DNA of 64,000 nt from Terriglobia bacterium (GCA_020073085.1 JAIQFV010000001.1:248001-312000), one strand, 5' to 3'; numbered from the stretch's first letter, positions 4,458 through 30,792 are shown. The notes: generated from the sequence alone by a model not told the origin. Translations and numbers: made by a program.

Positions 4458-7286
4458 ATGAAGAAGTTTTTGAGGACAGCTCGTCTCCTGGGGGGCGTCG
4501 CGGTTGCCCTATCTTATCTCTCTGCGTTGACGCCACAAATTTTTGCCGTCGGCCGTTCAATAGAAAATCTCCAAGACGTCAAGGCACCGAGTACCCTCGA
4601 AGAAGAATTGAACGCCGCTGACCGGCTGGTCGCCGAGGGAAAGGGCGAAGCAGCGCGCAAGCTTTATGAAGCGGCAGCCGCGCGCGCCCACAACGAGAAG
4701 AACGGCGTCCTTGAATCGCGTGCCCTGGCTTCCATCGGACGGCTGCTTTCCCGTGCAACCAAATACGTTGAAGCCCAGAAGTATCTCATCCAAGCCCTGC
4801 CGCTGGCCGAGGATGCCGGCGACCCTGCCGCCGTCGCGCGCGTGTGCAATTCGCTCGGGATCGCGGCCCGATACATGGGTAAAGCCGACGAGGCCCGGAC
4901 CTGGTACAAGAAAGCAGCGGAAGCCGCCGGACGAGCCGGGGACCTCCGACTCCAAACCGACAGTCTGATCAACCTCGCTGGCTTGATGGATTGGTCTGAC
5001 CCGGACGCCGAGAGAATGATCCGCGATGCCATAGGAGTCGCAGACAAAATAGGCGCCAGGGATCTCGAGGCGCGGGCCTTTCATCGATGGGGAGACTTTC
5101 TTTTCACAGGCGGCGATTTTGCTGCGGCGATGGAAAAACTGGAGCGCGCTGCTGTACTCTTAGGGGAATTCCGGGATGACGAAGAGCTGGCCAGGGTCTA
5201 CACCAGTATGGGCCGATTGAACCGCGCGCACGGCCGGCCGGCCGAAGCGATCCCGCTCTATGAAAAAGCCCTCCATCTTCAACAAGAGGTGAGCGACAAG
5301 GTCGGCGTGATCCAGAGCTTGAACGCCATAGGAGTGGCTTACCAAAGTCAAGACGATCACAAACGGGCCCGTGAATACTTCGAAAGGGCTTACGAGCTGG
5401 CCCTCAAGACCGATTCTCCCCGCATCATCGATTTCATGCGCGCCAATCTGGCCGGAAATCTTATCGATCTCCAGGAATACGCGCGAGCTGCACCCCTCCT
5501 GGAGGAAGTGCTGCGCCGCGGTGCAGACTCTAATCTGGCGTACCGCCACGCTCAGCTGTCGGCAGCATACGAAGGGATGGGACACCTTACCACCGCACGT
5601 GTGGAAGCTGACAAAGCGGTGGAATTGGCGTCCGCCAGAGTGGATTACCTGCCGGCGGCCATATCTCAAAGGGCTGAGGTTCGAGAACTGCAGGGTGATC
5701 TCCCTGGCGCGATGGAGGATGCGCTGGAAGTCATCCGCGTGACCGAGGGGATCCGGGAGAGGCTTGTTCCTCTGGATTTCATGAAACAGGGGTTCAGTTC
5801 ATATTACCAATTGGGCTACTCCTTCCTGGTAGGGCTATACCACCGCCTTGGAAAACCGGAGAAAGCGCTCGAGGTGGCTGAACTGGCCCGAGCGCGGGCC
5901 TTCCTGGATTTACTCGCCACCAAGGAAGTCCGCTTGAAGGCAACTGACGAATCCAAGGTCGCCGCCCTTCGCCTTGTCCAAAAGGAACTCAAGGCGCAAG
6001 GCATCGATCCGGTGGAAGCCTCCAGCGATTTAACTAACAAGTCCAACCCGGCGAAGCGGGCCGGCGAAGCAGATTCCCTGCTCCAACAATGGAAATCGGC
6101 GAGTCCGGAACTACAGAGCTTCGTTGCGGGAACCCCGCAGACAGCCGCTGAGATCATCGCCACGGCGGCCCATCTGCAGTCTACGATCATCAGTTATTGG
6201 GCGGGAAAGGATGCGCTTTACATCTGGGTGGTCAAGCCTGACGGCCATGTGTCGTCACGGCGGGTGGAGGTAACCGAGAGACGTCTGACCGAACTCGTCA
6301 ATGCGGCCTCAGCGGTCGGATCTTCGAACCGGCAGGGTTCAAGCCCAATTGTGCGAAGATCTGCTCAGATAGTATCCGCTGTTGCTTCGAAGGAGGATTG
6401 GCGGGAGCTATATAATCTGCTCATTTTGCCCTTGAGACAGTGGCTCCCGTCCCGGGGACATCGCCTGACCATCATCCCGCACGGTCCTTTGATGCGACTC
6501 TCGTTCGCGGCTCTGACAGACGAGAAAGGCCGATATCTGTTGGAGGAATACCCGTTGCACTATGCCCCGGCCGCAGCGCTCTTGGAATTTTTGGCGGCGA
6601 GAAGGCACGAAAAGGACGGTGTCCCCCATTTCCTGCTGGTGGCCGATCCGGCGTTCCCTCCCGCCTTGAAGAGCGAAGACCGGCTGTCACCGTTGCCGGG
6701 CGCGCGCGCGGAGGTTCGGGGAATTGCCCACCTTTTGCCGGCGGAGGCGGTCACCATGCTCCTAGGCCCGCAAGCCAACAAACAGGCGGTCACAGATTGG
6801 ATGAGCCGCTCCTCGGTGATACATTTCGCGACCCATGGCGTGGGACAGGATTACCAACCGCTGGACTCCTATCTCGCCTTGAGCGGTGGCAACGAGGTGG
6901 CCGATGCCCGCCTGTCGGCCAGGGAAGTCTATGCCCTTGACCTGCATGCCGACCTCGTGGTTCTCAGTTCCTGTCGATCCGGCGGTGGCAAGTTGACGGG
7001 AGAAGGTATCGCTGCTCTTGCGCGGGCTTTTTTTTATGCGGGGGCTCCCTCACTCATCGTTTCGCTGTGGGATGTGCCCGACCAGCCGGCCAACCGCCTA
7101 CTCCCGGGATTCTATGCCTCCTGGCTGCATGGGAGGGACAAGATCGATGCCCTGCGCGCGGCGCAGCTTCACCTGCTCGGTGACCTGCGCGCCGGCCGCG
7201 TGAAAGTCAGGACGCCGGCCGGCGAATTTGTCCTCTCCGAGCATCCGTCCCTGTGGGCCGGTTTCGTCCTTCTGGGCGAACCGTGA
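4458..7286 (+). CDS. Exported TPR-repeat protein with C-terminal CHAT (caspase-like) protease domain
   Basis: 942 residues. A signal-peptide-like N-terminus (MKKFLRTARLLGG, then VAVALSYLSALTP) suggests export. Residues about 45-440 are tandem TPRs (for example the ARVYTSMGRLNRAHGRPAEA unit), followed by a helical linker. A CHAT domain occupies about 600-942 with both expected catalytic residues: His793 in HFATHG and Cys839 in LSSCRSGGG. The downstream SLIVSLWDVPD strand is also typical. CHAT domains are caspase/separase-fold cysteine peptidases; the TPRs usually bind partners or substrates. The gene follows an ECF sigma and its membrane anti-sigma factor by 35 bases and is probably co-transcribed. 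The sigma factor may control it, or the TPR-CHAT protein may act on the anti-sigma periplasmic TPR. Both ideas are inference. Confidence 0.88.
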   Translation: MKKFLRTARLLGGVAVALSYLSALTPQIFAVGRSIENLQDVKAPSTLEEELNAADRLVAEGKGEAARKLYEAAAARAHNEKNGVLESRALASIGRLLSRATKYVEAQKYLIQALPLAEDAGDPAAVARVCNSLGIAARYMGKADEARTWYKKAAEAAGRAGDLRLQTDSLINLAGLMDWSDPDAERMIRDAIGVADKIGARDLEARAFHRWGDFLFTGGDFAAAMEKLERAAVLLGEFRDDEELARVYTSMGRLNRAHGRPAEAIPLYEKALHLQQEVSDKVGVIQSLNAIGVAYQSQDDHKRAREYFERAYELALKTDSPRIIDFMRANLAGNLIDLQEYARAAPLLEEVLRRGADSNLAYRHAQLSAAYEGMGHLTTARVEADKAVELASARVDYLPAAISQRAEVRELQGDLPGAMEDALEVIRVTEGIRERLVPLDFMKQGFSSYYQLGYSFLVGLYHRLGKPEKALEVAELARARAFLDLLATKEVRLKATDESKVAALRLVQKELKAQGIDPVEASSDLTNKSNPAKRAGEADSLLQQWKSASPELQSFVAGTPQTAAEIIATAAHLQSTIISYWAGKDALYIWVVKPDGHVSSRRVEVTERRLTELVNAASAVGSSNRQGSSPIVRRSAQIVSAVASKEDWRELYNLLILPLRQWLPSRGHRLTIIPHGPLMRLSFAALTDEKGRYLLEEYPLHYAPAAALLEFLAARRHEKDGVPHFLLVADPAFPPALKSEDRLSPLPGARAEVRGIAHLLPAEAVTMLLGPQANKQAVTDWMSRSSVIHFATHGVGQDYQPLDSYLALSGGNEVADARLSAREVYALDLHADLVVLSSCRSGGGKLTGEGIAALARAFFYAGAPSLIVSLWDVPDQPANRLLPGFYASWLHGRDKIDALRAAQLHLLGDLRAGRVKVRTPAGEFVLSEHPSLWAGFVLLGEP

Positions 7287-7430: not shown

Positions 7431-10400
7431 TCAATCTCGTCCGAGCCCCGGGCGCCACAACACCTGTTTCCAGGCATGGAGGTAGTGATCCATGGCATCA
7501 TCGTAGTTGCCCTTCGCCAGCGCTTTGTCTCCTTTCAGCACCTCCTCATTCGCTTTATTAAGACTCGCGGGATCAGCCTCCTGCTGCTGCTGAGCATCTG
7601 CAATCACCACCAAGGCCAGGAGCCGATTTGCGTTGATCAACCGGTTGATGAAGACCTGAAGAACGGCATCAGGGATGTTGCTTTTCTTATCTCTGATGAG
7701 TTCACCCAGTTTGTCGATGCTCTCCTTATCTTCATTGAAGACCCTCTCCCCAAGTTTCGTCTTCAGGTGGGTTGGATCATTCCAATAGCCACCATCGAGT
7801 GACTTCGTCAAGCGTCGGATGACTTCGTCGAGCTTCTGTCTGTCTTCTTTATCGGCGACCGTAGCGCGGAGCGCCGAGATGGCACTGAGGACACTTTGCT
7901 TGATACCGAGAGGCCCCAGCACGATGATAGATACCTCGGCGCTCGCTACTCCACCGTGTCCGTCATTCACGGTAAGCGTCATGTTGTTCACGCCAAGGGG
8001 ACAGGTGAGCGTTGCCACTCCGTTGGATGCTGACCCGCACGATCCGTTCCAGGAGAATGCGAGCGTGCCTCCGTCAGGAGCGCTGCCGGAGCCGCTGAAA
8101 TTGACGCTTGCGCCTGGGGGTGCCGTGGCATCGATTATTTGATTCGCCCCTGCAATGACTGTAGGTGGCAAGTTCTGGATTCCCGGTGCACCTGGATCAA
8201 CGATCTCTCCATTGGCGATGCGGTCGGCATCGAACGGAGCGAAGCCGTCCGTCAGAGTCAGGATCACATTGTTTCCGGAGAACACCGCATTTTGGACCCT
8301 CATAAACTGCCCGGACGGGCCTAAGATCTTCCAATAACTATTGGCGGGGCCGGGCAGAGAGATCGTGACCGTAATCGTTCCGCCGGGTGACACTCCAGCT
8401 ACTGAGAAGGCAATCATTCCATAGGGGAACTGTACCCCGGGCGGAAGTTGTCCCAAGGCGGGTGAGACGCTTACGGCATGCAGTGAAGTCCCGGGCGGAG
8501 ACGTGATAGTGATGGGCCCGGCCGGACCAATGACGGTGGCGATATTTCGCGCTGAGACCGTGAGACTGGCGGTGGCGGTGTGCGTCGAAGACGCCGACGT
8601 GCCGGTCACTGTGATGGTGGCTGTTCCACCCGTGGTCAACGTGCTAACGACGAGGGTGAGAGTGGAGCTACCGCCCGCCGTGACCGAGGCGGGGCTGAAC
8701 GAACCCGTCACGCCGGGGGGAAAACCTGAGACGGCAAGGCTAACATTCTCCGCAACGCCACTCGTGAGAGCGGTAGTGATCGTGAAGGTGGTCGTCGCGC
8801 CCTGAGTCAGCGATGCGACGAGCGGGCTCATGGCGATCGAGAAGTTATTCGCCGCTGTGACCGTGATGGTGGCGGTGGTCGTGTTGTCGGATAGATTGGG
8901 CTCCGCGAAGGCGACGCACCGCGGGTTCGGGGGGCAGGCGGTCACGGTAGCGGTGTTGGTCAGGGGAGCCGATGCCTGGCCGGCAGGCAGAGCGGCCGCA
9001 TCGATGACGGCATCGTATTCAACGGTCCACTTTCCACCCGGGAGCAACATTTGCTGTAGAGTTGAAGCGGTGATCCAGGTGCACGTGAGTACCTGCGGTG
9101 TGCCACTCACCGTACAAGTGGGCAGGGGCTCTCCCGCAATGAGAGGAGTCCTCGGGTTCCCCGGGGTCGCGGAATTGATTGTCAGCCCCGCTGGCAACGT
9201 GTCCGTCAAAGTGAACACTCCGGACGCGGTGCCGCTCGTGGGTCCGTTGCTCACTTCAATAGTGTAGTGCACCGTTTCCCCAACGCCTGCCGTGGCCTTA
9301 TCGGACAGCTTTCGCACGGCCAGGTCCGGAGCGCTCACGGTGATGGTGGCGGTGGCCGTGTTGTCGGCTAGATTGGGCTCCGCGAGGGCGGTGCAGGGGC
9401 TGGAGGTCGGGGTGCAGGCGGTCACAGTGGCGGTGTTGGTCAGTGTAGCTGATGACTGTCCGGTGGGCAGAACCGACGTGTCAACGACGGCATCGTATTC
9501 GAGGGTCCACGTTCCGCCAGGAGGCAGTTGATTCTGGACAGAACTGTAAGCCCATGTGCAAGTGAGTACCTGCGGAGAGACCGACACCGTGCAGAATGGC
9601 ATGAGCTCTCCTGGCAGGAGTGGGACTCTCAGGTTCCCCAGGGTCGTGGAATCAATCGTCAGCCCCACCGGCAACGTGTCCGTCATCATGATTTCCCCAT
9701 ATGTGGCGTCGGCATTGGTTCCGTTGCTCACTTCAATGGTGTAGTGCACCGTTTCCCCGACGCCTGCCGTGGTCTTACCGGACAGTTTCCGCACGGACAA
9801 GTCCGGACCGGGTAGAGGGGCCGCCACAAACATGAAGGCATGGCCTTGCCCGTTGATTCTGCCATTCCCTGCGATCTGTCCATTGTCATTGACAGTCACT
9901 GCCGAATCCAAACTCTGCCAGGCCGGGGACGTGCTCGAAATAGCCTTCATCACACCGTTTCTATAGATGAATGCACGCTGTCCGTTCGCTGTCGTTGACG
10001 CACCCACCGTCGTGCCCGAGCCATTGACAGCGATCGCCCAGCTCCGTGCCCCCCCCAGCGTTCCGAGGTCAATCATCGCGCCTTGATTGTACAAAAAGGC
10101 ATGATAGCCCCCGGTTCCCTTATCGACACGACCCACCACTTGGCCAGAACTGTTCATGGCAACAGCAAAACTCGACAGTCCCCCGGCGCCGATGTCATTC
10201 ATCACTCCGCGGTCATAAAAAAAGGCATGCTGGGGGTTGGATGCCGCTGTCGACTGTCCCATCACCTGCCCCAGGTCATTGATGGCGTGGGCTTCGCTAT
10301 GGCCAAAGAGCCCCCCTCCGAGTGTACCGAGATCCGTCATCCCGCTGGTGCCATAGAGGAAGGCATGAAATCCACCGGTACTTTTATTTGCCGCTCCCAC

Positions 10401-12698
10401 CACCTGGCCGGAGTTGTTGATGGCGTAAGCCGTGCTATCCGGTCCACCAAGTGTGCCGAGGTCCGTCATTCCGACGCTGCTGCTATAGAGGAACGCATGC
10501 GTGCTTCCATCGGCAGTAAATGACCATCCGGTCACCTGGCCGGAGTTGTTGATGGCGGTGGCAAAGCTGTCTCTTCCACCGAACGTGCCAAGGTCGGCCA
10601 TCACCCCGTTGCTGTAAAGGAAGGCGTGCGCGACGCCCGCGGCCGTCATGGAATACCCAACCACCTGGCCGGAATCGTTGATGGCGGAAGGTATGATGTA
10701 TGTCCCTCCTGGAAGCGTGCCAAGATCGGTCATCACCCCGTTGCTGTAAATAAAGGCGTGTGTCGCGCCAGTGGCGGTGTAGGAGTAGCCGACTACCTGG
10801 CCCGAACCGTTCATGGCCGTGACAGCACTCGCTTGCCCACCGAGCGTACCGAGATCAATGATGTTGAATGCCTGCTCCGGCGGCGGCGTTATAAACGCAT
10901 TAATGGTGATCAAAATGCTCGTTATGGCTGTCAGTCCGTTCGCGTCGGTGACGAATACGGTGAAGGTATAAATGCCTTCCAGCGGGGAGGGGTTGGATAA
11001 AATCCCGGTTGCCGCGTCAATCCTAAACCCGACAAGAAATCCTGGCGCGCTCCAGGTATACGGCCCTGTGCCACCGGAGGCCGACAACGCAAGGCCGTAC
11101 GGGGCACCCTCCGCCCCCTCTGCAACTGCAGGGGTAATAATGGAAAAGTCGATGACGGTGGGTCCTGCGAGTTCTCCCGTTGCAGGAAGTCTCCCCCCGA
11201 TGGCTCCGTCCGATGCTTCGAAGTGGTAGGTGTGCGACCCGACTGCGAGAGTTGTAGTGAACGTGTACTGCTCGCCATCCGTGAAATTGCCATTGCGTAA
11301 CACGGGGTCCGTGGCCGCGGTGTCCTGCGACATCGCTGAACAGGCGCCGTCGATGCAGACGTTGACCGAGGTGGGCGTCAGATTCCCCGTGTGTGAATAG
11401 ACGGTCTTGAAAGTAAACACGGTAGACGCGGTGCCGGTGTCGGGATTGACGCCATCGGTCCCATACCCGGTCTCACCAGAATAAGAAAGCATTGGGGCCG
11501 GAGGAGGAGGGGGGGTGTTTATCATGGCGATGGCATGGTTATATCCTGAAGCGACTGCCGCAACGTTTGCCAGTCCACTTACTTGAACGGGGAGATCGTT
11601 TTCAACGGTCGGCTGGTTGTCGGCCGGGTTTCCGGCCAGGTAAGTTCCCCACGCCCAGACCGTCCCGTCGCCCATGAGGGCCAGCGTGTGGTTCATCCCT
11701 GCCGTGACCGCGATGACGTTGTTCAATGCATTCACCTGAGCGGCGGGAGTATGGCTCCGGGAATTAGTCCGGCCGATGGGATCGTTGGTCCCGTTGCCGA
11801 GCTGACCGAACTGGTTATTGCCCCACGTCCAGACGGTGCCGTCGCTCTTGAGGGCCACGGTATGACTGCCGTGACTGGCCACGGCGGTCACACCACTCAG
11901 TCCGGCCACCTGAGAGGGAGTCGGGCCGGGGGAATAGACGCTCCCCACTAACACGGAATCTCCCCAGGCCCAGACCGTCCCGTCGTTTTTGACGGCAACG
12001 GAATGCCCTTCGCCTGCGGCTATGGCGACGGCGCCAGTGAACGCGACTACAGGCAGAGGTTCTATTCCGGCCGGTTCGAAAGCGAGTTGCAGGGAGGCAT
12101 TGGATCCCCAAGCCAGGACCGTACCGTCGCCCTTGAGGGCGAGGGTATGAGCGGATCCTGCGGCCACTGCGGTTACACCAGTAAGCCCATTCACCTGGAC
12201 GGGAGTAAAACTATCAGAGTTTGACCCGTCACCGAGTTGGCCATCGGTGTTACTGCCCCAGGCCCAGACGGTTCCATCGCCTTTGATGGCCACGGCATGC
12301 GATAAACCCGCAGCCACTGCGATCACCCCGCTAAGGCCCTGCACCTGAACGGGTGCTAAGCTATCAGTGGCTGTACCGTCGCCCAACTGACCTCGCTGGT
12401 TAGAGCCCCACGCCCAAACCGTGCCATCGCTCTTGAGCACATAAGTGGAGCCCCCGCCTGCGGCCACGGACAAAACATTGGTAAGAGGCTGGCCCAAACC
12501 GTCGATCACCACATCCACACCAGAAAATTTATCGGCGTTCGTTCCGTCGCCGAGCTGGCCGTAAAAGTTATTGCCCCAAGTGAAAACGTCCCCGCTCGTT
12601 ATCCTAATGGCCGGACGGGATCTGGCCTCGTTGAAGGTGGGGTGGGTGCTGGCGCACAGCGTGAGGGCAGAGAGAGCAATGATATTCAGCAACTTCAT
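7431..12698 (-). CDS. Giant exported repeat protein: RCC1 propeller, HAF repeats, DUF11 and PKD-like domains
   Basis: 1755 residues. The ATG at 12698 is chosen because GGAGGAGG lies just upstream and a signal peptide follows (MKLLNIIALSALTLC). Approximate order: seven RCC1-type blades (VWAWGSNxxGQLGDG motifs, ~33-390); an Ig-like region with a cadherin-like putative Ig repeat (~400-605); about eight HAF repeats (MTDLGTLGG ... AINxSGQVVG ... HAFLY, ~609-960); two DUF11 repeats (VGETVHYTIEVSNG, ~961-1283), similar at DNA level; an Ig-like segment; a PKD/REJ-like domain (~1506-1593); and a C-terminal all-helical domain (~1596-1755) rich in Lys/Asp/Gln. No PEP-CTERM, LPXTG or type 9 sorting tag is visible. 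It is probably a secreted or surface adhesion/scaffold protein. Function beyond that is unknown. Confidence 0.85.
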   Translation of the reverse strand: MKLLNIIALSALTLCASTHPTFNEARSRPAIRITSGDVFTWGNNFYGQLGDGTNADKFSGVDVVIDGLGQPLTNVLSVAAGGGSTYVLKSDGTVWAWGSNQRGQLGDGTATDSLAPVQVQGLSGVIAVAAGLSHAVAIKGDGTVWAWGSNTDGQLGDGSNSDSFTPVQVNGLTGVTAVAAGSAHTLALKGDGTVLAWGSNASLQLAFEPAGIEPLPVVAFTGAVAIAAGEGHSVAVKNDGTVWAWGDSVLVGSVYSPGPTPSQVAGLSGVTAVASHGSHTVALKSDGTVWTWGNNQFGQLGNGTNDPIGRTNSRSHTPAAQVNALNNVIAVTAGMNHTLALMGDGTVWAWGTYLAGNPADNQPTVENDLPVQVSGLANVAAVASGYNHAIAMINTPPPPPAPMLSYSGETGYGTDGVNPDTGTASTVFTFKTVYSHTGNLTPTSVNVCIDGACSAMSQDTAATDPVLRNGNFTDGEQYTFTTTLAVGSHTYHFEASDGAIGGRLPATGELAGPTVIDFSIITPAVAEGAEGAPYGLALSASGGTGPYTWSAPGFLVGFRIDAATGILSNPSPLEGIYTFTVFVTDANGLTAITSILITINAFITPPPEQAFNIIDLGTLGGQASAVTAMNGSGQVVGYSYTATGATHAFIYSNGVMTDLGTLPGGTYIIPSAINDSGQVVGYSMTAAGVAHAFLYSNGVMADLGTFGGRDSFATAINNSGQVTGWSFTADGSTHAFLYSSSVGMTDLGTLGGPDSTAYAINNSGQVVGAANKSTGGFHAFLYGTSGMTDLGTLGGGLFGHSEAHAINDLGQVMGQSTAASNPQHAFFYDRGVMNDIGAGGLSSFAVAMNSSGQVVGRVDKGTGGYHAFLYNQGAMIDLGTLGGARSWAIAVNGSGTTVGASTTANGQRAFIYRNGVMKAISSTSPAWQSLDSAVTVNDNGQIAGNGRINGQGHAFMFVAAPLPGPDLSVRKLSGKTTAGVGETVHYTIEVSNGTNADATYGEIMMTDTLPVGLTIDSTTLGNLRVPLLPGELMPFCTVSVSPQVLTCTWAYSSVQNQLPPGGTWTLEYDAVVDTSVLPTGQSSATLTNTATVTACTPTSSPCTALAEPNLADNTATATITVSAPDLAVRKLSDKATAGVGETVHYTIEVSNGPTSGTASGVFTLTDTLPAGLTINSATPGNPRTPLIAGEPLPTCTVSGTPQVLTCTWITASTLQQMLLPGGKWTVEYDAVIDAAALPAGQASAPLTNTATVTACPPNPRCVAFAEPNLSDNTTTATITVTAANNFSIAMSPLVASLTQGATTTFTITTALTSGVAENVSLAVSGFPPGVTGSFSPASVTAGGSSTLTLVVSTLTTGGTATITVTGTSASSTHTATASLTVSARNIATVIGPAGPITITSPPGTSLHAVSVSPALGQLPPGVQFPYGMIAFSVAGVSPGGTITVTISLPGPANSYWKILGPSGQFMRVQNAVFSGNNVILTLTDGFAPFDADRIANGEIVDPGAPGIQNLPPTVIAGANQIIDATAPPGASVNFSGSGSAPDGGTLAFSWNGSCGSASNGVATLTCPLGVNNMTLTVNDGHGGVASAEVSIIVLGPLGIKQSVLSAISALRATVADKEDRQKLDEVIRRLTKSLDGGYWNDPTHLKTKLGERVFNEDKESIDKLGELIRDKKSNIPDAVLQVFINRLINANRLLALVVIADAQQQQEADPASLNKANEEVLKGDKALAKGNYDDAMDHYLHAWKQVLWRPGLGRD

Positions 12699-12855
12699 GA
12701 GTAAGCCTCCTCCAAATGGAAATTGAAACGGCTTGACCCCCGTTCCAATTACAAAAACAAAAATATCAATGTGAAACCCAGGGAGCCGTTCCAATCAACG
12801 ACTGAAAGGGATTTGGCCTCGGTTAGGCCAGCCACCCAAATAATCCGAACTGCAT

Positions 12856-13685: not shown

Positions 13686-14228
13686 CTACTTGAAAAGCTT
13701 GCGGAGCGGATGCGGACCAACTGCGTCCGTAGAACCGCTTGACCCCCAACCACCAACATCCACGAGCGGTTTGCCATCCACGGAAATCTCATGAAATCCA
13801 CGTAGCCCGCTGGAGGAATTGCCCCAAGCTTCGAACTCGACCACAACGACTCTCTTGCCAGAGCTCTTGAGCTGGTCGCAGAGACCTCGCCCCGAGGCGA
13901 CCTCCTCATAATGCGGATCCTCGACATATCTGAATCGAACCGGCTGGGCTTCGGGGTTTTCAGGCATGTATTTGTCTGGCGCACATTCCCATGTCATCTC
14001 TTTCTTGACACGGACATACTGGTCACGACTGGGCGCAACGATGACTACACTCAAAACAGCAACCAATGCGGTGCAGATGCCAACCACAATACGCGCATTT
14101 CGCCTGACGCCTTGCGGAAACAACCACGAGGCGGCTGAGGACTTTCTAAAAGCGGCCGCCAAAGCGTAAGCCGTGACCAGCAATAGTAGTGGTACTGCCA
14201 TGACTGTTATCATCGTTATTGCTCTCAT
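13686..14228 (-). CDS. Hypothetical protein with two membrane segments
   Basis: 180 residues, family not recognised. Two hydrophobic segments (about residues 5-25 and 45-65, the second GICTALVAVLSVVIVA) precede a soluble ~115-residue region, presumably outside the membrane, with two cysteines (ECAPDKY and GLCDQL). The start codon overlaps the upstream gene's stop by four bases (ATGA at 14225-14228), so the two genes are translationally coupled. They share the same layout of an N-terminal membrane part and a C-terminal beta-rich part and may form a complex. Both lie downstream of the permease-phosphatase fusion on the same strand. Confidence 0.6.
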   Translation of the reverse strand: MRAITMITVMAVPLLLLVTAYALAAAFRKSSAASWLFPQGVRRNARIVVGICTALVAVLSVVIVAPSRDQYVRVKKEMTWECAPDKYMPENPEAQPVRFRYVEDPHYEEVASGRGLCDQLKSSGKRVVVVEFEAWGNSSSGLRGFHEISVDGKPLVDVGGWGSSGSTDAVGPHPLRKLFK

Positions 14229-14950
14229 CTTTTGAGTCCGGTCGTGTCTCGTTTGGGCTGGAAGTCGATTTCATACCCTTGTCTTGCACCGCTCGCCAGT
14301 TCAACCTTTAACATGCTTTGCCTCGGGTCCTCCCATATCGGTTCTAAGCGGATGGTTCTCTTGAGTGTTGCGGCGTTGAGAGGATACCTCTTCCATTCCT
14401 GTCCGTATTGGACATAAATGATGTTTGTTGCGTTTGGTTCAGGCAAATCAACTGGGTGTGGAACCGGGTGTGACATTATGATGATCGCCCGACTGCTCTT
14501 CCCCTTGCCAAAGAACGAGTACTGACAATTTTCAACACTTCCCCCAATACCGATTCCCTTCAGTTGCGCGATTTCGGCGTTAGAGAGGCGCGCACCGGAA
14601 ATTCCTAGGATTTTGTCCAGCGAATCTGAGATCACAAGCGGTTCGTCGGAGGGGGACCATTTCATGATTCGGATGGTCAGTCGTTGGTCACTCAGCTTCG
14701 CGGCTGTCAGCCCGATGATCCCAGGCAGATAGAATGACCAAACCATAATGGCCCCCACCAACGCGAGCCGCGCCGCTGCATGTGCCCGCACCAAACTCAC
14801 ATAAGCGGAGAACACGAGAACAAGCGAACCGAGGAGCGATACGTACTTCCATGTACTAATTGGTGCTCCCCAAACAGCCCACCCGAGGGCATAGAGAACA
14901 GGGACTCCCGTGACCACACCCGCGGTGAGATATAGGAGGAATGGCAGCAT
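14225..14950 (-). CDS. Hypothetical protein with N-terminal multi-pass membrane domain
   Basis: 241 residues, family not recognised. Four hydrophobic segments fill roughly the first 110 residues (for example YVSLLGSLVLVFSAYVSLV and ALVGAIMVWSFYLPGIIGL). A soluble, probably beta-rich C-terminal domain of about 130 residues follows and ends in GYEIDFQPKRDTTGLKR. GGGAGG-like purines (GGGAGG about nine bases upstream of the ATG) support the start. It begins 86 bases after the permease-GAF-PP2C fusion gene and overlaps the next membrane-protein gene by four bases, so a three-gene unit is plausible. No catalytic motif is visible. Confidence 0.62.
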   Translation of the reverse strand: MLPFLLYLTAGVVTGVPVLYALGWAVWGAPISTWKYVSLLGSLVLVFSAYVSLVRAHAAARLALVGAIMVWSFYLPGIIGLTAAKLSDQRLTIRIMKWSPSDEPLVISDSLDKILGISGARLSNAEIAQLKGIGIGGSVENCQYSFFGKGKSSRAIIIMSHPVPHPVDLPEPNATNIIYVQYGQEWKRYPLNAATLKRTIRLEPIWEDPRQSMLKVELASGARQGYEIDFQPKRDTTGLKR

Positions 14951-15036: not shown

Positions 15037-18000
15037 TCACTGCACCTTTACAACGAGCAATGTCAGATCGTCTCCGAGCGGGGCATCGGCGGTGAACTGC
15101 GCGATGGTTTCCTTGACCTTATCGACCAGTTCTCGAGCCCCGAGATGTCTTTCCCGCAACAGCAAATCGATTAACCGCTCCGTGCCGAACTCCTCGCCCT
15201 TGCTATCGGAGGCTTCTGTGACTCCGTCGGTATAGGCCACGAGTAAGTCCCCTTTAAGGAGACTGATGGTCGACTGTTCATAATCCAGGTTGGAGAACAT
15301 GCCGACAACCGGCCCTCCCGCGCTCAAGTATTCCACTTGAAATTCCGCACCCTGCCCCGACGCTGATGAAAAGGAGGTGTCAGGACCGGCCTGTTGACCC
15401 AGCTCTCCGGCCAAGGCTGAGCCGTTTCCGGCCTGCCCCGCGCGGATCAGGATGGGCGGGTTGTGGCCCGCGTTCACAAAAGTAAATCCGAGGTCCTTGA
15501 GGTCGAGTTGTCCGTAGAAAAGAGTCGCATAACTGGAAGGGCCCGTGGAAAGGACAAGGAGATGATTGATTGCGGCCACCACACCGGCCGGCGGGGGCGC
15601 TCCACGACTGGCCAGAGTCCTCATGGACGCTTGTATGGACGACATCAGAAGTGCCGCCGCCATTCCTTTCCCCGCGACGTCAGCCAGGACAATCCCCAGA
15701 TGATCCGCATCCAGAATGACGTAGTCGAAATAGTCTCCAGCCACGCCGCGGGCCGGGGTGCAGGCGCCGGCGATCTCAACCATTTCGGTGGTCGGCGACA
15801 CTTGCGGAAGCAGACGTCGCTGAACCTCAGAGGCCATCTGTAGTTCGCGCACCAGCCGCTCTTGCTCTGCGACGCGGCCTGCCAATTTGGAATTGGCCAC
15901 AATAAATGCCAGATGGGTGGCCATGTCCCCCACGAATTCACGCTCCTTCAAGTCATAGCCCGATCCGTCTTCCCGCGGACCAAGAATGAGCAGGCCCACG
16001 GTTTCCCCTTTCAACCTCATCGGCGCCACCAGACCTGCTTGTGCGGCCCGGAGCGCAGAAATCTCTTCTCGCCGCTCTTCAATCCCCCTCTCCCGCAAAT
16101 TAGGCGGCTCAGCTTGCTCCCACGCCTCGTAATCACCTGCTTCAATCCAAAGAGGTGTCGAAAGGCGGCTCAGCCTCCGGATCACAAAGGCATCCTTCTT
16201 GATTCGCAACGCCCCAGCAGAGTGGCCTGAAGGATCGATCTTGGGCATCGAGACGGCGCCAAGGAAATCACCCGTCGCATCGTCGCAAAAAAAAGCATGA
16301 GCATGCCGGCTGCCCATGGCCACCCGGACGGTCTCTACCGCATTGGAATAGAGTTCCTCAAGGCTGCTGGTGCCTCGAGCCGAAGCTGCCAGATCGGCAA
16401 GCACCTGCCGCTCGGTAGGATGTGGGGCGGTTTGTCGCTTGGCTGCGCCCAAGCGTGGCCGTGAGGTCCGCCGGGCAGACCGCCAGGAGAGCGGTTTATC
16501 CTGCTGAATCGTGATCAATGGATCGACTCGAGTGGCGCGGCGCGCCGGCACATAGCTTGCCAGCAGCGAAATCCCAAACAGTGGAAGTGAAACAGCCACC
16601 AGGGTCAAAGGGTCACGGGCACTCACCTCGAAGAGCAATGTGGAGAAGACGCGGCCAAGAGCCAGGGCGCCTAGGACGCCGATGATCAGGCCCGTGAGGA
16701 TGAGTTTGGAACCGTCGCCGAGAAACAGCCCGATCACTTGCCCCGGCTCGGCCCCGAGCGCCATCCGAACGCCGATCTCCCGTGTCCGCTGGGCTACCGA
16801 ATATGCCATCACTCCGTACAACCCCAGCGCGGCCAGAAGCAGGCCCGCACCTCCGAAGGCCGCCAGCACCGTCAGATTAAAACGCTGACCTGTCATGGAT
16901 GACGAAAAAATCCCATCCAACGTTCGGAACCTTGCCGGTAATTCCGGATTCAATGCCCGGACCGCCTGTCGAATGCTGGGCACCAGTGGGATGGGGTCGC
17001 CTTGTGAATGAATCACCAGCGAGAAATCGTTGGTCCGCCGGGGGCGTTGCCGATAGTCCACATAAAGGTCGCCGTAGGCGGGTCTATCGGGGCCCCGGTC
17101 ATGCACGTCTCCGACGATGCCCACGATGGTGGACCAGTGATCATCGCCGTCCATGTTGCCGGAGTTGACGCGCTTGCCGAGGACATCCTCGTGGGGCCAG
17201 AGACGCTGGGCAGCGCGCTGGCTGATGACCGCAACATGGGGAGTCCCCGGGCCCTCCGTGTCGGTGAACAGGCGCCCTCGAATAAGGGGGATACCCATGG
17301 CGCGAAAATACCCCTCACTCGCCACGCAAAAACCTGTCGAGGTTTCGATGGTGCGTTCACCCCGGCCCTCCAGCAACATTTCGCCACTGGGCAATCGGCT
17401 GCTGAGGGGGAGATTGCTGACTCCGCCTACCGCCAACACGCCAGGAAGCGCGCGCAGGCGTTCCAGCAAGCGCTGGAGGTCGGCAGCCAAGCGCAGCGCC
17501 TCCCGGTCATCGCGGGGTTCCGGGAAGGAAAGGTCCGCTACCAGACGGCTATCGGTCTGGAATCCCAGGTCCACCCGAAGCAGGCGCCCGAAGCTCCTCG
17601 CCAGGAGCCCGGCGCCCGTGAGCAGCACGAGCGTCATCGCCACCTGCAACACAACCAGAAGACTCTGGAGGTGGTGATGAGCCGGCCCACTGGAGCTGGA
17701 TCGCCCTTCTTCTTTCAGTATGTCGGAGAGGTTCGGGTCAGAAATGCGCGTGGCAGAAACCAATCCGAGGATCAGAGTCGTGAACACGGCGACGGCCAAT
17801 GCAAAGACCAGAACTCTTCCATCCACATGGATCTCTTGGAACCGGGGCAAGTCCTGCGCACTGAGGGCCAGCATGGCGCTTACGCCCCAGAGGGAAATCA
17901 CAACGGCCAGAACTCCGCCCGCAAGACACCGGAGGAAATTCTCCACCAGAAACTGCCGAATCAATCGAGAACGGCTCGCACCGAGCGCCGCTCGAATCGC

Positions 18001-18906
18001 CAGTTCTTTCTGCCGGGCGACGGCTTGCGCCAGCAGGAGATTGGCGACGTTGGCGCACGCAATCAATAACAAGATGCCAACAGCCGCCAAAAGAACCCAA
18101 AGGGCTTTGCGGACACCCTGAACCATATGACTGCGGAGAGGGATGACTGCGACATCGACAGCGTCAACATCCTTTCCATACTGCACCTTGATCCGGTTTG
18201 CAATCGCCGTCATGTCGGCACGCGCCTGGTCGAGCGTCTCCCCGGGCCTCAGACGGGCAATCACGCCCCAGTTGTGGGCCGTGCGATAGGGGTTGACAGG
18301 TGCCTGGATCTCCTGAGGAATCCAGAGTTCAGATTGCTCGGGGAAATTGAAACTTGGCGGCATGATTCCGATGAGGGCGTAACTGCGGTTTTCGAATTTC
18401 AGAAACTTCCCTTCCAAGCCAAGGTCGCCCCCGAGCTGGCGTTTCCAGAAGCCATAACTGACTACGACAACTGGGATGGCGCCCGCCTGGGTGTCCGTAA
18501 TCTGAAAGGTGCGCCCAATTGACGGCGCCACGCCAAAGACTCGGAAGTAGTCGCGGGAAACCTGGCAAGCGGAGGCCCGGACCGGCTCGCTCCCGCCAGA
18601 AACCGAAGTCTGGCCACAAGAATAGAGTGCCATGTATTCAATGCTGCGGCTGCTTTGTTGCCAGTCCAGGAAGTTCGCTTCGGAGGCATCGCTCTGTCCA
18701 CCCCAGGCGGGAACCTCGCGGAGTTCCATGATGCGTTCCGGCGCCGCATACGGAAGGGGATGCAACAACACACCGTTCACGACCGTGAATATGGCCGTAC
18801 AGGCGCCAATTCCCAGCGCCAGTGTGAGGACGGTGACACCTGTGAATCCGGGCTGGCTCAGCAGGATGCGAATTGAAGATCGGAAATCTTGCAGTAAGCC
18901 GTTCAC
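15037..18906 (-). CDS. ADOP-type duplicated MacB/FtsX permease fused to GAF and SpoIIE/PP2C phosphatase domains
   Basis: 1289 residues with an unusual fusion. Residues ~1-806 are a complete ADOP permease: two MacB_PCD plus FtsX units, starting FRSSIRILLSQPGFTGVTVL and ending at RVDPLITIQQ, where stand-alone ADOP proteins normally stop. A linker leads to a GAF-like domain (~832-1000), a short helical signalling linker (~1003-1035) and a SpoIIE-type PP2C phosphatase (~1035-1289). The phosphatase retains its metal-binding acidic residues: Asp1058 (GDYFDY), Asp1076 (ADVAGKG), Asp1227 (YTDGVTEA) and Asp1279/1280 (GDDLTLL). PP2C/SpoIIE enzymes dephosphorylate anti-sigma antagonists or similar phosphoproteins. 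MacB/FtsX permeases couple to ATPases or act mechanically across the membrane. The fusion suggests envelope-state sensing relayed to a cytoplasmic phosphatase, which is inference. The frame is open throughout, with no sign of a frameshift. Confidence 0.88.
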   Translation of the reverse strand: MNGLLQDFRSSIRILLSQPGFTGVTVLTLALGIGACTAIFTVVNGVLLHPLPYAAPERIMELREVPAWGGQSDASEANFLDWQQSSRSIEYMALYSCGQTSVSGGSEPVRASACQVSRDYFRVFGVAPSIGRTFQITDTQAGAIPVVVVSYGFWKRQLGGDLGLEGKFLKFENRSYALIGIMPPSFNFPEQSELWIPQEIQAPVNPYRTAHNWGVIARLRPGETLDQARADMTAIANRIKVQYGKDVDAVDVAVIPLRSHMVQGVRKALWVLLAAVGILLLIACANVANLLLAQAVARQKELAIRAALGASRSRLIRQFLVENFLRCLAGGVLAVVISLWGVSAMLALSAQDLPRFQEIHVDGRVLVFALAVAVFTTLILGLVSATRISDPNLSDILKEEGRSSSSGPAHHHLQSLLVVLQVAMTLVLLTGAGLLARSFGRLLRVDLGFQTDSRLVADLSFPEPRDDREALRLAADLQRLLERLRALPGVLAVGGVSNLPLSSRLPSGEMLLEGRGERTIETSTGFCVASEGYFRAMGIPLIRGRLFTDTEGPGTPHVAVISQRAAQRLWPHEDVLGKRVNSGNMDGDDHWSTIVGIVGDVHDRGPDRPAYGDLYVDYRQRPRRTNDFSLVIHSQGDPIPLVPSIRQAVRALNPELPARFRTLDGIFSSSMTGQRFNLTVLAAFGGAGLLLAALGLYGVMAYSVAQRTREIGVRMALGAEPGQVIGLFLGDGSKLILTGLIIGVLGALALGRVFSTLLFEVSARDPLTLVAVSLPLFGISLLASYVPARRATRVDPLITIQQDKPLSWRSARRTSRPRLGAAKRQTAPHPTERQVLADLAASARGTSSLEELYSNAVETVRVAMGSRHAHAFFCDDATGDFLGAVSMPKIDPSGHSAGALRIKKDAFVIRRLSRLSTPLWIEAGDYEAWEQAEPPNLRERGIEERREEISALRAAQAGLVAPMRLKGETVGLLILGPREDGSGYDLKEREFVGDMATHLAFIVANSKLAGRVAEQERLVRELQMASEVQRRLLPQVSPTTEMVEIAGACTPARGVAGDYFDYVILDADHLGIVLADVAGKGMAAALLMSSIQASMRTLASRGAPPPAGVVAAINHLLVLSTGPSSYATLFYGQLDLKDLGFTFVNAGHNPPILIRAGQAGNGSALAGELGQQAGPDTSFSSASGQGAEFQVEYLSAGGPVVGMFSNLDYEQSTISLLKGDLLVAYTDGVTEASDSKGEEFGTERLIDLLLRERHLGARELVDKVKETIAQFTADAPLGDDLTLLVVKVQ

Positions 18907-28260: not shown

Positions 28261-28596
28261 GGGGAACGAACCGGATGGATATCTGGGGCAGCGCGGAATG
28301 ATCCCGCCATCCGAGCAAGAGAATCCAAATCCCAAATTTCAAACAAAACCCAAATTCCAGTAACACCTGATTAAAGTCCGGGCAAAACGCTCCCGTGGGC
28401 AGTTGTGTCCGAAGCTCATGCTGATCGCCATTCAATACTCGTCCCTTTCCAAGGCATCCCGAGAACAGAAGTTCCCGGAAGGATGAACTCAAGAATCCTC
28501 TCGATTTTAGCCTTCGCTCCACACATAATTCGACCCGAAGCAGCCTATCGCTGGACCGGAGTGTCCACTGCATTGATGATTTCCATGGAGGATCTT
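28261..28596. other. Intergenic region before the patatin-BamA gene
   Basis: 336 bases with one A-rich dispersed repeat (28320-28360). The patatin frame remains open upstream to 28405, but this extension lacks a ribosome-binding site and would bury the signal peptide, so it is treated as non-coding. Confidence 0.5.
28320..28360. repeat. A-rich dispersed repeat, copy 2
   Basis: It shares AAAACCCAAATTCCAG with copy 1 at 22553-22602. It lies just downstream of the S10 peptidase stop. Confidence 0.6.
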
Positions 28597-30792
28597 GTGA
28601 GATCACGCCTTCCCCTGATTTTGACCTTGCTTCTCTTGTTCTTGAATGACGTCACCTCGGGACAGCAGTCCTCGCCGTCACGTGCACGTCCGAAGATCGG
28701 CATCGCTCTGGAGGGTGGAGGAGCCAAGGGCCTGGCCCACATCGGTGTATTGGAATGGCTTGAGGAACACCGGATCCCTATCGACTACATCGCGGGGACC
28801 AGTATGGGAGGTCTGGTCGGGGGCCTCTATGCCACCGGCAAACGACCGGATGAGATTCGAGAACTAATCAAGGAAATCGACTGGGACAAGGTGTTGGCAG
28901 GGAGGACGCCCTACCTGGATCTCGACTTCCGTCGCAAGGAAGATCTCCGTGCCAATCCGAATGGGCTGATTGTGGGCCTGCGCCACGGCCCCCAACTGCC
29001 GAGCGGATTGAACTCCGGCCACGAGGTGTCCCTCATTTTGGACCGCTTAGTCCTCTCTTACTCCGGGACGAATAATTTTGATGATTTGCCGATTCCATTT
29101 CGGTGCGTGGGAACCGATCTGGTTTCCGGAAAGCCAGTCGTCTTCAAAGAGGGCTCGCTGGCAGAAGCTCTGCGCTCCACCATGTCTTTGCCGGGAATCT
29201 TTTCACCGGTCAAACACGCTGGAACAGTCTTGGCGGACGGCGGGCTGTTGAACAACTTGCCCACGGATGTGGTGAAGCAGATGGGGGCAGACATCGTCAT
29301 CGCCGTCCACTTAAGTTCAGCTCCTGTTAATCCGAGGGATTTAGGGTCTCTATTAGGGGTGGCCCAGCGATCCATCGAGGTCATGATTGGCGCCAACGAA
29401 CTTCGTGGGATGGAGTTGGCCGACATTTTGATTACCGTCGATGCCGGGAATTACTCCGTCCTGGACTTCAAGAAAGCGGGTGAGATTGTGCCCCGGGGAT
29501 ACGCCGCGGCCCAAGGGAAAACGAAGATTCTTTCTGAGTTCTCTGTCGATGAGGAGGCCTGGCAGCAGGTCCTCGCGCGGCGCGAGTCGCGGCGCATCCA
29601 TTCTCAACGCACGCCGCAGTTCGTGGAGGTAAGAGGAACCAGCACAGAGATGGCTCGCGACATCCAGAAGGAGCTCTCGGGATATATGGGTCGACCGATG
29701 GAACCGGCACAGCTGGAGCGGGATCTCACCCGGCTGACCGGCGTAGGTCGCTTTAACCGGCTCAGTTATTCGATCACCGAGCGGAACGGACAACCTGGGC
29801 TCCTGATCCTCGCCGACGAAAAGGACTATGCACCACCCGTGTTCAAGCCGGGATTCGTTGTCAACGGGTCCGACCCCAAGAGTGTCCAGTTTTCTTTTGG
29901 CGGACGGCTGACCTTTCAGGATGCAGGGGGATATCGATCGGAACTGCGCTCCGATCTCTCGCTCGGCACTGTGTATGCCATTCGCTCCGAGTACTATCAT
30001 CCCCTGACCTCGTCGAGCCGTTGGTTTATTGCCCCACGAGCCGGGGCAAGCAGTTCCTCCTTCAATATCTATTCTCGAAATACACTCCTCTCCGAATACC
30101 GGATGAACCGGACTGAGGTGGGCGCCGATTTCGGGTACTCCTTCGACCGGTTCAGTGAACTTCGTCTCGGCTATGAGGTGGGTTATCTCAATGCCAGCCG
30201 GCGTATTGGCAACCCTTTGCTTCCCTCGCAAAGTGCGCGAACGGGTGCGAGCTCGCTCCGTCTGATCATGGATCGATTGGACAGCCCGGTGATTCCTCGC
30301 CGGGGAATTGGACTCGAATGGAAGGCACAATGGGTCGATGCTAATCTCGGCGCCCACTCGGGGTTCCCGCTCTCGGAGGCGACCTTTCAAGTTTTCCATC
30401 CGATCAGCGATCCCGCTTCGATCTATCTGCTGGCGGCCGGGGGAACCACCTTCGGACACAATCAAACGGGCTTGCCGCCCTTCTCGCTGGGCGGGCCATC
30501 GCGGCTGGCCGCCTATGGCATCAATGAATTTCTCACGAACCAGTACTTCTATTTTCGGGCGGGCTATCTCCACCGGTTGGCCCAGTTGCCTCCCTTCCTG
30601 GGTAATGCCATTTACATCTCAGGCCTGTATGAAGTCGGGAAGGCCTACAACCTGTCGAACGTCACGGGTCTGCCCAACGACGGGGCAGTTGGGCTGGTCG
30701 TCGAAACGGTCCTCGGTCCGGCTTTCATCGGCGGCAGTTTGGGAGACAGTGCTCACCGAAAATGGTTCTTCCAGTTGGGAAAGGTGTTCTGA
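28597..30792 (+). CDS. Patatin-like phospholipase fused to POTRA and BamA-type barrel (type Vd autotransporter, PlpD-like)
   Basis: 731 residues. The GTG at 28597 is preferred because GGAGG sits five bases upstream and a signal peptide follows directly (RSRLPLILTLLLLFLNDV). Residues ~33-300 are a patatin domain with the oxyanion loop EGGGAKGLAH, nucleophile Ser69 in GTSMGG and Asp214 in ADGGLLNN, a complete Ser/Asp dyad. A single POTRA-like domain (~330-410) and a 16-strand BamA-like barrel follow, ending in the aromatic WFFQLGKVF. This is the layout of type Vd secretion systems such as Pseudomonas PlpD, in which the barrel exports the lipase domain. Phospholipase A activity is expected from the family. 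The 172-bp repeat array starts about 30 bases after the stop. Confidence 0.92.
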   Translation: MRSRLPLILTLLLLFLNDVTSGQQSSPSRARPKIGIALEGGGAKGLAHIGVLEWLEEHRIPIDYIAGTSMGGLVGGLYATGKRPDEIRELIKEIDWDKVLAGRTPYLDLDFRRKEDLRANPNGLIVGLRHGPQLPSGLNSGHEVSLILDRLVLSYSGTNNFDDLPIPFRCVGTDLVSGKPVVFKEGSLAEALRSTMSLPGIFSPVKHAGTVLADGGLLNNLPTDVVKQMGADIVIAVHLSSAPVNPRDLGSLLGVAQRSIEVMIGANELRGMELADILITVDAGNYSVLDFKKAGEIVPRGYAAAQGKTKILSEFSVDEEAWQQVLARRESRRIHSQRTPQFVEVRGTSTEMARDIQKELSGYMGRPMEPAQLERDLTRLTGVGRFNRLSYSITERNGQPGLLILADEKDYAPPVFKPGFVVNGSDPKSVQFSFGGRLTFQDAGGYRSELRSDLSLGTVYAIRSEYYHPLTSSSRWFIAPRAGASSSSFNIYSRNTLLSEYRMNRTEVGADFGYSFDRFSELRLGYEVGYLNASRRIGNPLLPSQSARTGASSLRLIMDRLDSPVIPRRGIGLEWKAQWVDANLGAHSGFPLSEATFQVFHPISDPASIYLLAAGGTTFGHNQTGLPPFSLGGPSRLAAYGINEFLTNQYFYFRAGYLHRLAQLPPFLGNAIYISGLYEVGKAYNLSNVTGLPNDGAVGLVVETVLGPAFIGGSLGDSAHRKWFFQLGKVF

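Follow-up and report, generated by a model that had tools for sequence, protein, structure and literature searches.

Fusion of a duplicated MacB/FtsX-type ADOP permease to a GAF-PP2C phosphatase in acidobacteria: a probable family of membrane-bound signalling receptors

ADOP permeases (TIGR03434), in whose name "orphan" stands for the lack of a linked ABC ATPase, constitute a large family in acidobacteria, which are common soil bacteria, and no description of their function was found. Permeases of the MacB fold are known to relay conformational changes from one side of the membrane to the other; one of type VII, BceB, functions together with the sensor kinase BceS (reviewed in PMC5985334). Those SpoIIE/RsbU-type phosphatases that have been studied act on STAS proteins (PMC11418112). 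RsbU becomes active when the helices of its coiled-coil linker cross and its PP2C domains dimerise, and the authors of that work argue that relatives with GAF or PAS linkage behave likewise (PMC12143880); dimerisation of SpoIIE shifts its switch helices, by which the metal site is completed (PMC5468089). Receptor-type PP2C proteins, MacB-fold permeases talking to signalling enzymes and transporter-enzyme chimeras such as CbrA are already known separately.

In the window, the 64,000-nucleotide stretch of DNA analysed here, which comes from a soil bacterium of the phylum Acidobacteriota, one gene encodes an ADOP permease, a GAF-like domain and a SpoIIE-type PP2C phosphatase. The parts of this gene and two adjacent ORFs are the following:

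15037-18906, minus strand: whole fused gene, 1289 open codons with a GTG start, 1289 aa
17707-18897, minus strand: first ADOP half (residues 4-400) with TM1, a MacB-like periplasmic domain and TM2-TM4; matches to TIGR03434, MacB_PCD and FtsX
16498-17676, minus strand: second ADOP half (residues 411-803) with TM5, a periplasmic domain and TM6-TM8; domain matches, hydropathy and AlphaFold likeness to MacB and LolE
16414-16497, minus strand: junction and flexible tether (residues 804-831), placed by the end of unfused ADOPs and by model confidence
15898-16413, minus strand: GAF-like domain (residues ~832-1003); GAF_2 at 847-1003, kinase-GAF profile match, mixed alpha/beta fold in the model
15811-15951, minus strand: GAF-to-PP2C helix of 47 residues (986-1032), high confidence in AlphaFold
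15040-15849, minus strand: SpoIIE/RsbU-type PP2C (residues 1020-1289) with D1058, D1076, D1227 and D1280; PF07228 and fold match
14225-14950, minus strand: 241-aa ORF with a hydrophobic N-terminus and no Pfam match, starting 86 bp past the stop of the fused gene
13686-14228, minus strand: 180-aa ORF with a hydrophobic N-terminus and no Pfam match, overlapping the 241-aa ORF by 4 bp

Residues 4-802 correspond end to end to the NCBIfam model of ADOP, TIGR03434 (863.2 bits with a cut-off of 622.3, profile positions 1-802 of 803). Pfam places two MacB_PCD and two FtsX domains there, revealing the internal duplication typical of ADOP, and the hydropathy profile contains eight TM helices, four per half, those of the first half lying near residues 20-49, 261-298, 319-339 and 359-389. 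The C-terminal part matches SpoIIE (PF07228) up to residue 1288 with 152.5 bits (cut-off 25). The GAF_2 match at 847-1003 scores 24.1 bits, slightly below the Pfam cut-off of 28.6, and a profile of the fused family matches histidine-kinase GAF structures with E = 2.6e-6. Codon-position GC has a coding-like pattern on either side of the ADOP/GAF join and stays even across the junction, with no frame break. The first-pass annotation had described a complete duplicated ADOP continuing without a stop into a GAF-like domain and a PP2C phosphatase that keeps its metal-binding aspartates, and the single frame of 1289 codons with its matches of 863 and 152 bits bears this out. Residues 1058, 1076, 1227, 1279 and 1280 are all Asp and are invariant in eight aligned full-length fused proteins; metal-ligand motifs were also surveyed across the fused family. 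The cytoplasmic position suggested earlier for GAF and PP2C agrees with the eight TM helices and with homology to MacB, by which both termini of the fused protein would be cytoplasmic.

Pfam and NCBIfam scans found no ATPase domain in the fused protein, and there was no ABC_tran match in the subset of flanking ORFs scanned. Of 26 fused ADOPs, 21 carry the coupling-helix (ATPase-docking) motif of the type E-x-x-x-R-x-A-L-G-A, a sequence proxy only, in each half, compared with 61 of 92 unfused ones. As the docking motifs are kept in both halves of these 21, a separate ATPase may drive the permease. The genome encodes 51 ADOPs above the cut-off, and only the one at 15037-18906 continues into GAF-PP2C.

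Co-transcription of the 241-aa ORF with the fused gene is possible; this ORF was not seen adjoining other fused genes. Comparison of neighbourhoods revealed no neighbour gene recurring beyond a few fused loci and no recurrent signalling partner gene near them. An anti-phage defence role was also considered for the fused gene and rejected, PADLOC yielding only a weak LolE-like match. Elsewhere in the window lie genes for a TPR-CHAT (caspase-like) protein (4458-7286, plus strand), a 1787-aa protein with RCC1 repeats, DUF11 and a PKD-like domain (7431-12794, minus strand) and a Patatin-Omp85 protein (28405-30792, plus strand), the last with a layout known among autotransported phospholipases.

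Among 399 genomes belonging to the same class, a search turned up several further open frames, about 1250-1300 aa long, with the same C-terminal part, which full-length comparison confirmed as ADOP-GAF-PP2C proteins with about 31-36% identity to the window protein. According to a profile search, permease and phosphatase form one intact gene in at least 23 of 237 genomes of one family, some with two copies; the count refers to rows with open frames of at least 1120 aa and was partly cross-checked, and the genome-survey counts are lower bounds, the best few candidates having been scored per genome. A scan of genome contigs with the single fused protein gave no match because the relatives are too diverged, and the contig search succeeded with an alignment of the tether-GAF region as the query. 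Removal of duplicates left 26 distinct complete fused genes. The relatives come mostly from metagenome-assembled genomes; among the named records, MAGs of Bryobacteraceae, Bryobacterales and Solibacter prevail, and one record carries the label Vicinamibacteria. Of three genomes from the order to which the window belongs, only that of the window has the fusion; in the sister genome G001, the closest C-terminal relative has a different membrane part before GAF-PP2C, not an ADOP. No record in the plasmid collection covered 80% of the fused-protein query. Since the layout is common to dozens of related bacteria, it is a real family, and its members are probably membrane-bound signalling receptors. 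In the KBS 96 copy (L105, 4267-7276; also G254:C1), most of the second ADOP half is gone and PP2C runs on in another frame; this copy is decayed or mis-sequenced. Another relative (L113) is frameshifted.

The fusion point had been placed just after the usual ADOP C-terminus, and unfused ADOPs indeed terminate 0-4 residues beyond the point where the fused proteins carry on. Between TM8 and GAF lies a variable tether of 20-35 residues, the fastest evolving part of the fused proteins. Its residues 811-825 have pLDDT < 50 in the AlphaFold model of the window protein, and the tether is of low confidence in both models obtained, of the window protein and of a main-clade relative. Selection was estimated from pairs of close fused relatives with estimable dS, the window gene having no relative near enough. 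Omega ranged from 0.12 to 0.24 in the ADOP part, from 0.10 to 0.31 in GAF and from 0.07 to 0.13 in PP2C; the tether, estimated in five pairs, had 0.42-0.61 in four of them and 0.18 in the remaining one. The low values for ADOP and PP2C indicate that both halves are maintained as working domains. Because the tether is fast evolving and modelled with low confidence, a rigid relay seems less likely than control through proximity or dimerisation. In the L143/G418 lineage, an in-frame stop exactly at the ADOP C-terminus divides the fusion into two genes (L143, 3541-7212), and covalent linkage is therefore not essential.

In the tree of GAF-PP2C modules, all fused modules except that of the window compose one group (support 100/99), which the window's module joins with support 72/88. 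In the ADOP tree, fused members occupy three places. One is a main clade; G092 and the window's protein each lie elsewhere, surrounded by unfused ADOPs, which in the latter case come from its own genus and from others. A topology constrained to a single clade of fused ADOPs is rejected (AU p = 5.4e-5). The scattering of fused ADOPs together with the clustering of their GAF-PP2C modules indicates repeated pairing; the same kind of phosphatase module has been attached to, or swapped among, various ADOPs at one and the same point, on at least two and probably three occasions.

The AlphaFold model of residues 405-1289 has a mean pLDDT of 90. Its second ADOP half resembles the structures of MacB and LolE, and its PP2C part is closest to that of SiaA (Z 29.1, rmsd 2.6 over 242) and to the Rv1364c RsbU domain (Z 26.2), with RssB and SpoIIE (5ucg, Z 23.3) also matched. 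Studied members of the SiaA/RsbU-domain group act on STAS proteins. GAF and PP2C are linked by the continuous helix 986-1032, predicted with high confidence and found again in the model of the main-clade relative, which agrees with that of the window protein and has an extra low-confidence helix in the tether. With pTM of 0.54-0.55, the models do not fix the placement of the permease relative to the phosphatase.

The stand-alone proteins most closely related to the module are soluble, have the layout GAF-PP2C and a length of about 540-600 aa, and occur mostly in Pyrinomonadaceae. At 10 of 13 loci (G542 and G744 are among those examined), no more than 221 bp separate their gene from a same-strand ADOP gene, and it often stands between two ADOPs. 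In contrast, the commoner 7TM-GAF-PP2C type has a same-strand ADOP neighbour at none of about 30 loci (Fisher p = 1.5e-7, the loci being related rather than independent and some cut by contig ends). These operon-like neighbourhoods of the unfused forms further support a putative ADOP-phosphatase signalling link. The window's genome also contains, on contig G000:C9 at about 62.7-85.5 kb (L274, L275), a one-strand run of ADOP genes that includes, between ADOPs, a SpoIIE-type phosphatase gene of another clade and has a small ABC ATPase gene close by. The run with its interposed SpoIIE gene is retained in the sister genome (G001:C19, L277), where the phosphatase is a Response_reg-GAF-SpoIIE protein.

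Three RsbV/SpoIIAA-like STAS proteins with a DSSG or DSTG motif are encoded in the genome; two of them adjoin RsbW-like kinases and none is near the fused gene. The fused protein is most likely a receptor phosphatase acting on such STAS proteins, and the anti-sigma-antagonist target proposed in the first-pass annotation is plausible, the three candidates being present and unlinked. The genome possesses about 14-15 SpoIIE-type phosphatases for three canonical RsbV/SpoIIAA-like STAS proteins (plus one weak), which would mean many inputs into few switches. In one place (G000:C38:9372-10124, L284), genes for an RsbV-like STAS protein and an RsbW-like kinase directly adjoin same-strand MlaE-/MlaF-like transport genes, an arrangement that suggests a partner switch linked to lipid transport.

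It seems to us an even chance that the fused protein works as a receptor-type SpoIIE/RsbU phosphatase controlled by its ADOP part through proximity or dimerisation, with a STAS protein as the target. The ADOP part would alter its shape or pairing, perhaps via a separate ABC ATPase or a periplasmic ligand. This change, together with a ligand of GAF, would bring two GAF-helix-PP2C units into a crossed-helix dimer and switch the phosphatase on. One ADOP chain bears one phosphatase, so dimerisation would require two permease molecules. Being attached by a flexible tether, the permease would act by clustering, pairing or positioning and not as a stiff lever. The active enzyme would strip phosphate from the serine of an RsbV/SpoIIAA-like STAS protein and thereby shift the output of the partner switch, a sigma factor or envelope transport. 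We infer every step here beyond the domain anatomy of the fused protein. The earlier idea that a transmembrane state directly controls the phosphatase thus stands in part: the link between ADOP and phosphatase is backed by the operon-like neighbourhoods, but direct mechanics is weakened by the variable, predicted-disordered tether.

The same tether, short, fast evolving and disordered in the models, would also suit an ADOP that is a mere membrane anchor or an independent transporter, with GAF and a cytoplasmic ligand alone controlling the phosphatase and the fusion keeping it at the membrane. The single continuous helix from GAF to PP2C and the gene fission in L143/G418 point the same way. However, a generic anchor would not explain why the module is found on different ADOP lineages and why its unfused sister phosphatases adjoin ADOP genes, and the whole ADOP part, including the periplasmic domains, is under purifying selection; this explanation is possible but rather doubtful. 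The signal might also run in reverse, the GAF-set phosphatase regulating transport by dephosphorylating the permease, its ATPase or ADOPs in the neighbourhood. In favour of this, the linkage involves ADOP genes generally, no recurrent signalling partner gene lies nearby, and the coupling-helix motifs are kept in both halves of 21 of the 26 fused ADOPs; but the PP2C fold is closest to SiaA and the Rv1364c RsbU domain, a group whose studied members act on STAS proteins. We know of no phosphorylated permease of the ADOP kind, which also counts against regulation in this direction, and we regard it as improbable.

Chance read-through, an assembly error or a decaying gene would be in keeping with the broken relatives, KBS 96 with its large deletion and cut PP2C and the frameshifted L113. 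For the family this is refuted by the 26 complete fused ORFs, which are diverged, share one junction, keep their motifs intact and evolve under purifying selection, and for the gene in the window it is extremely improbable; the alternative of a unique accident, named in the first-pass annotation, falls with the many diverged relatives.

Beyond the fused proteins, it may tentatively be supposed that ADOPs, with about 50 copies in this genome, function at least in part as sensors in the envelope instead of as pumps, with SpoIIE-type phosphatases receiving their signal in cis or in trans. If so, ADOP and phosphatase would make up a signalling class built on the MacB/FtsX fold, with the fusions as its cis form and the neighbouring GAF-PP2C genes as its trans form. 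Recurrent fusion and gene neighbourhood with one phosphatase class give a concrete functional lead for ADOPs, testable by a simple phosphatase assay.

No description of an ADOP-phosphatase fusion was found in the open literature covered by the search, and the words FtsX, MacB, permease and GAF are all absent from the main text of a paper surveying PP2C architectures in bacteria (PMC12088040). We could not find this combination, or the repeated link between ADOPs and SpoIIE-type phosphatases, described before.

The N-terminal 802 residues of the fused protein are like any ADOP of TIGR03434, with two MacB-like halves. A MacB-type ABC exporter has its ATPase in the protein or in a linked gene, and none was recognised in the fused protein or in the flanking ORFs scanned. 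SiaA of Pseudomonas aeruginosa and the SpoIIE/RsbU-type phosphatases likewise carry a membrane receptor or regulatory domain before a PP2C of the same fold with the metal aspartates kept. The sensor part of SiaA is of the periplasmic-sensor/HAMP kind, SpoIIE has ten TM helices and RsbU a soluble N-domain; in the fused protein, a duplicated MacB-like permease takes this place. YbbP of the E. coli YbbAP-TesA system is also a single-chain duplicated type VII permease with two periplasmic domains, but it has ten TM helices with a linking pair, partners the ATPase YbbA and TesA, and bears no cytoplasmic signalling domain (PMC12646458). In the CbrA/CrbS transceptors (SLC5-STAC-histidine kinase), a transporter fold and a signalling enzyme similarly share one polypeptide, both being unrelated to those of the fused protein (PMC7096432, PMC5715377). 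In BceAB-BceS, a MacB-type permease also reports to a signalling enzyme, here in antibiotic sensing (PMC5985334), but through separate proteins, a histidine kinase and a dedicated ATPase, where the fused protein is one chain with a phosphatase. The fused protein would widen the idea of MacB/FtsX-fold permeases as signal transmitters to a Ser/Thr phosphatase output in the same chain.
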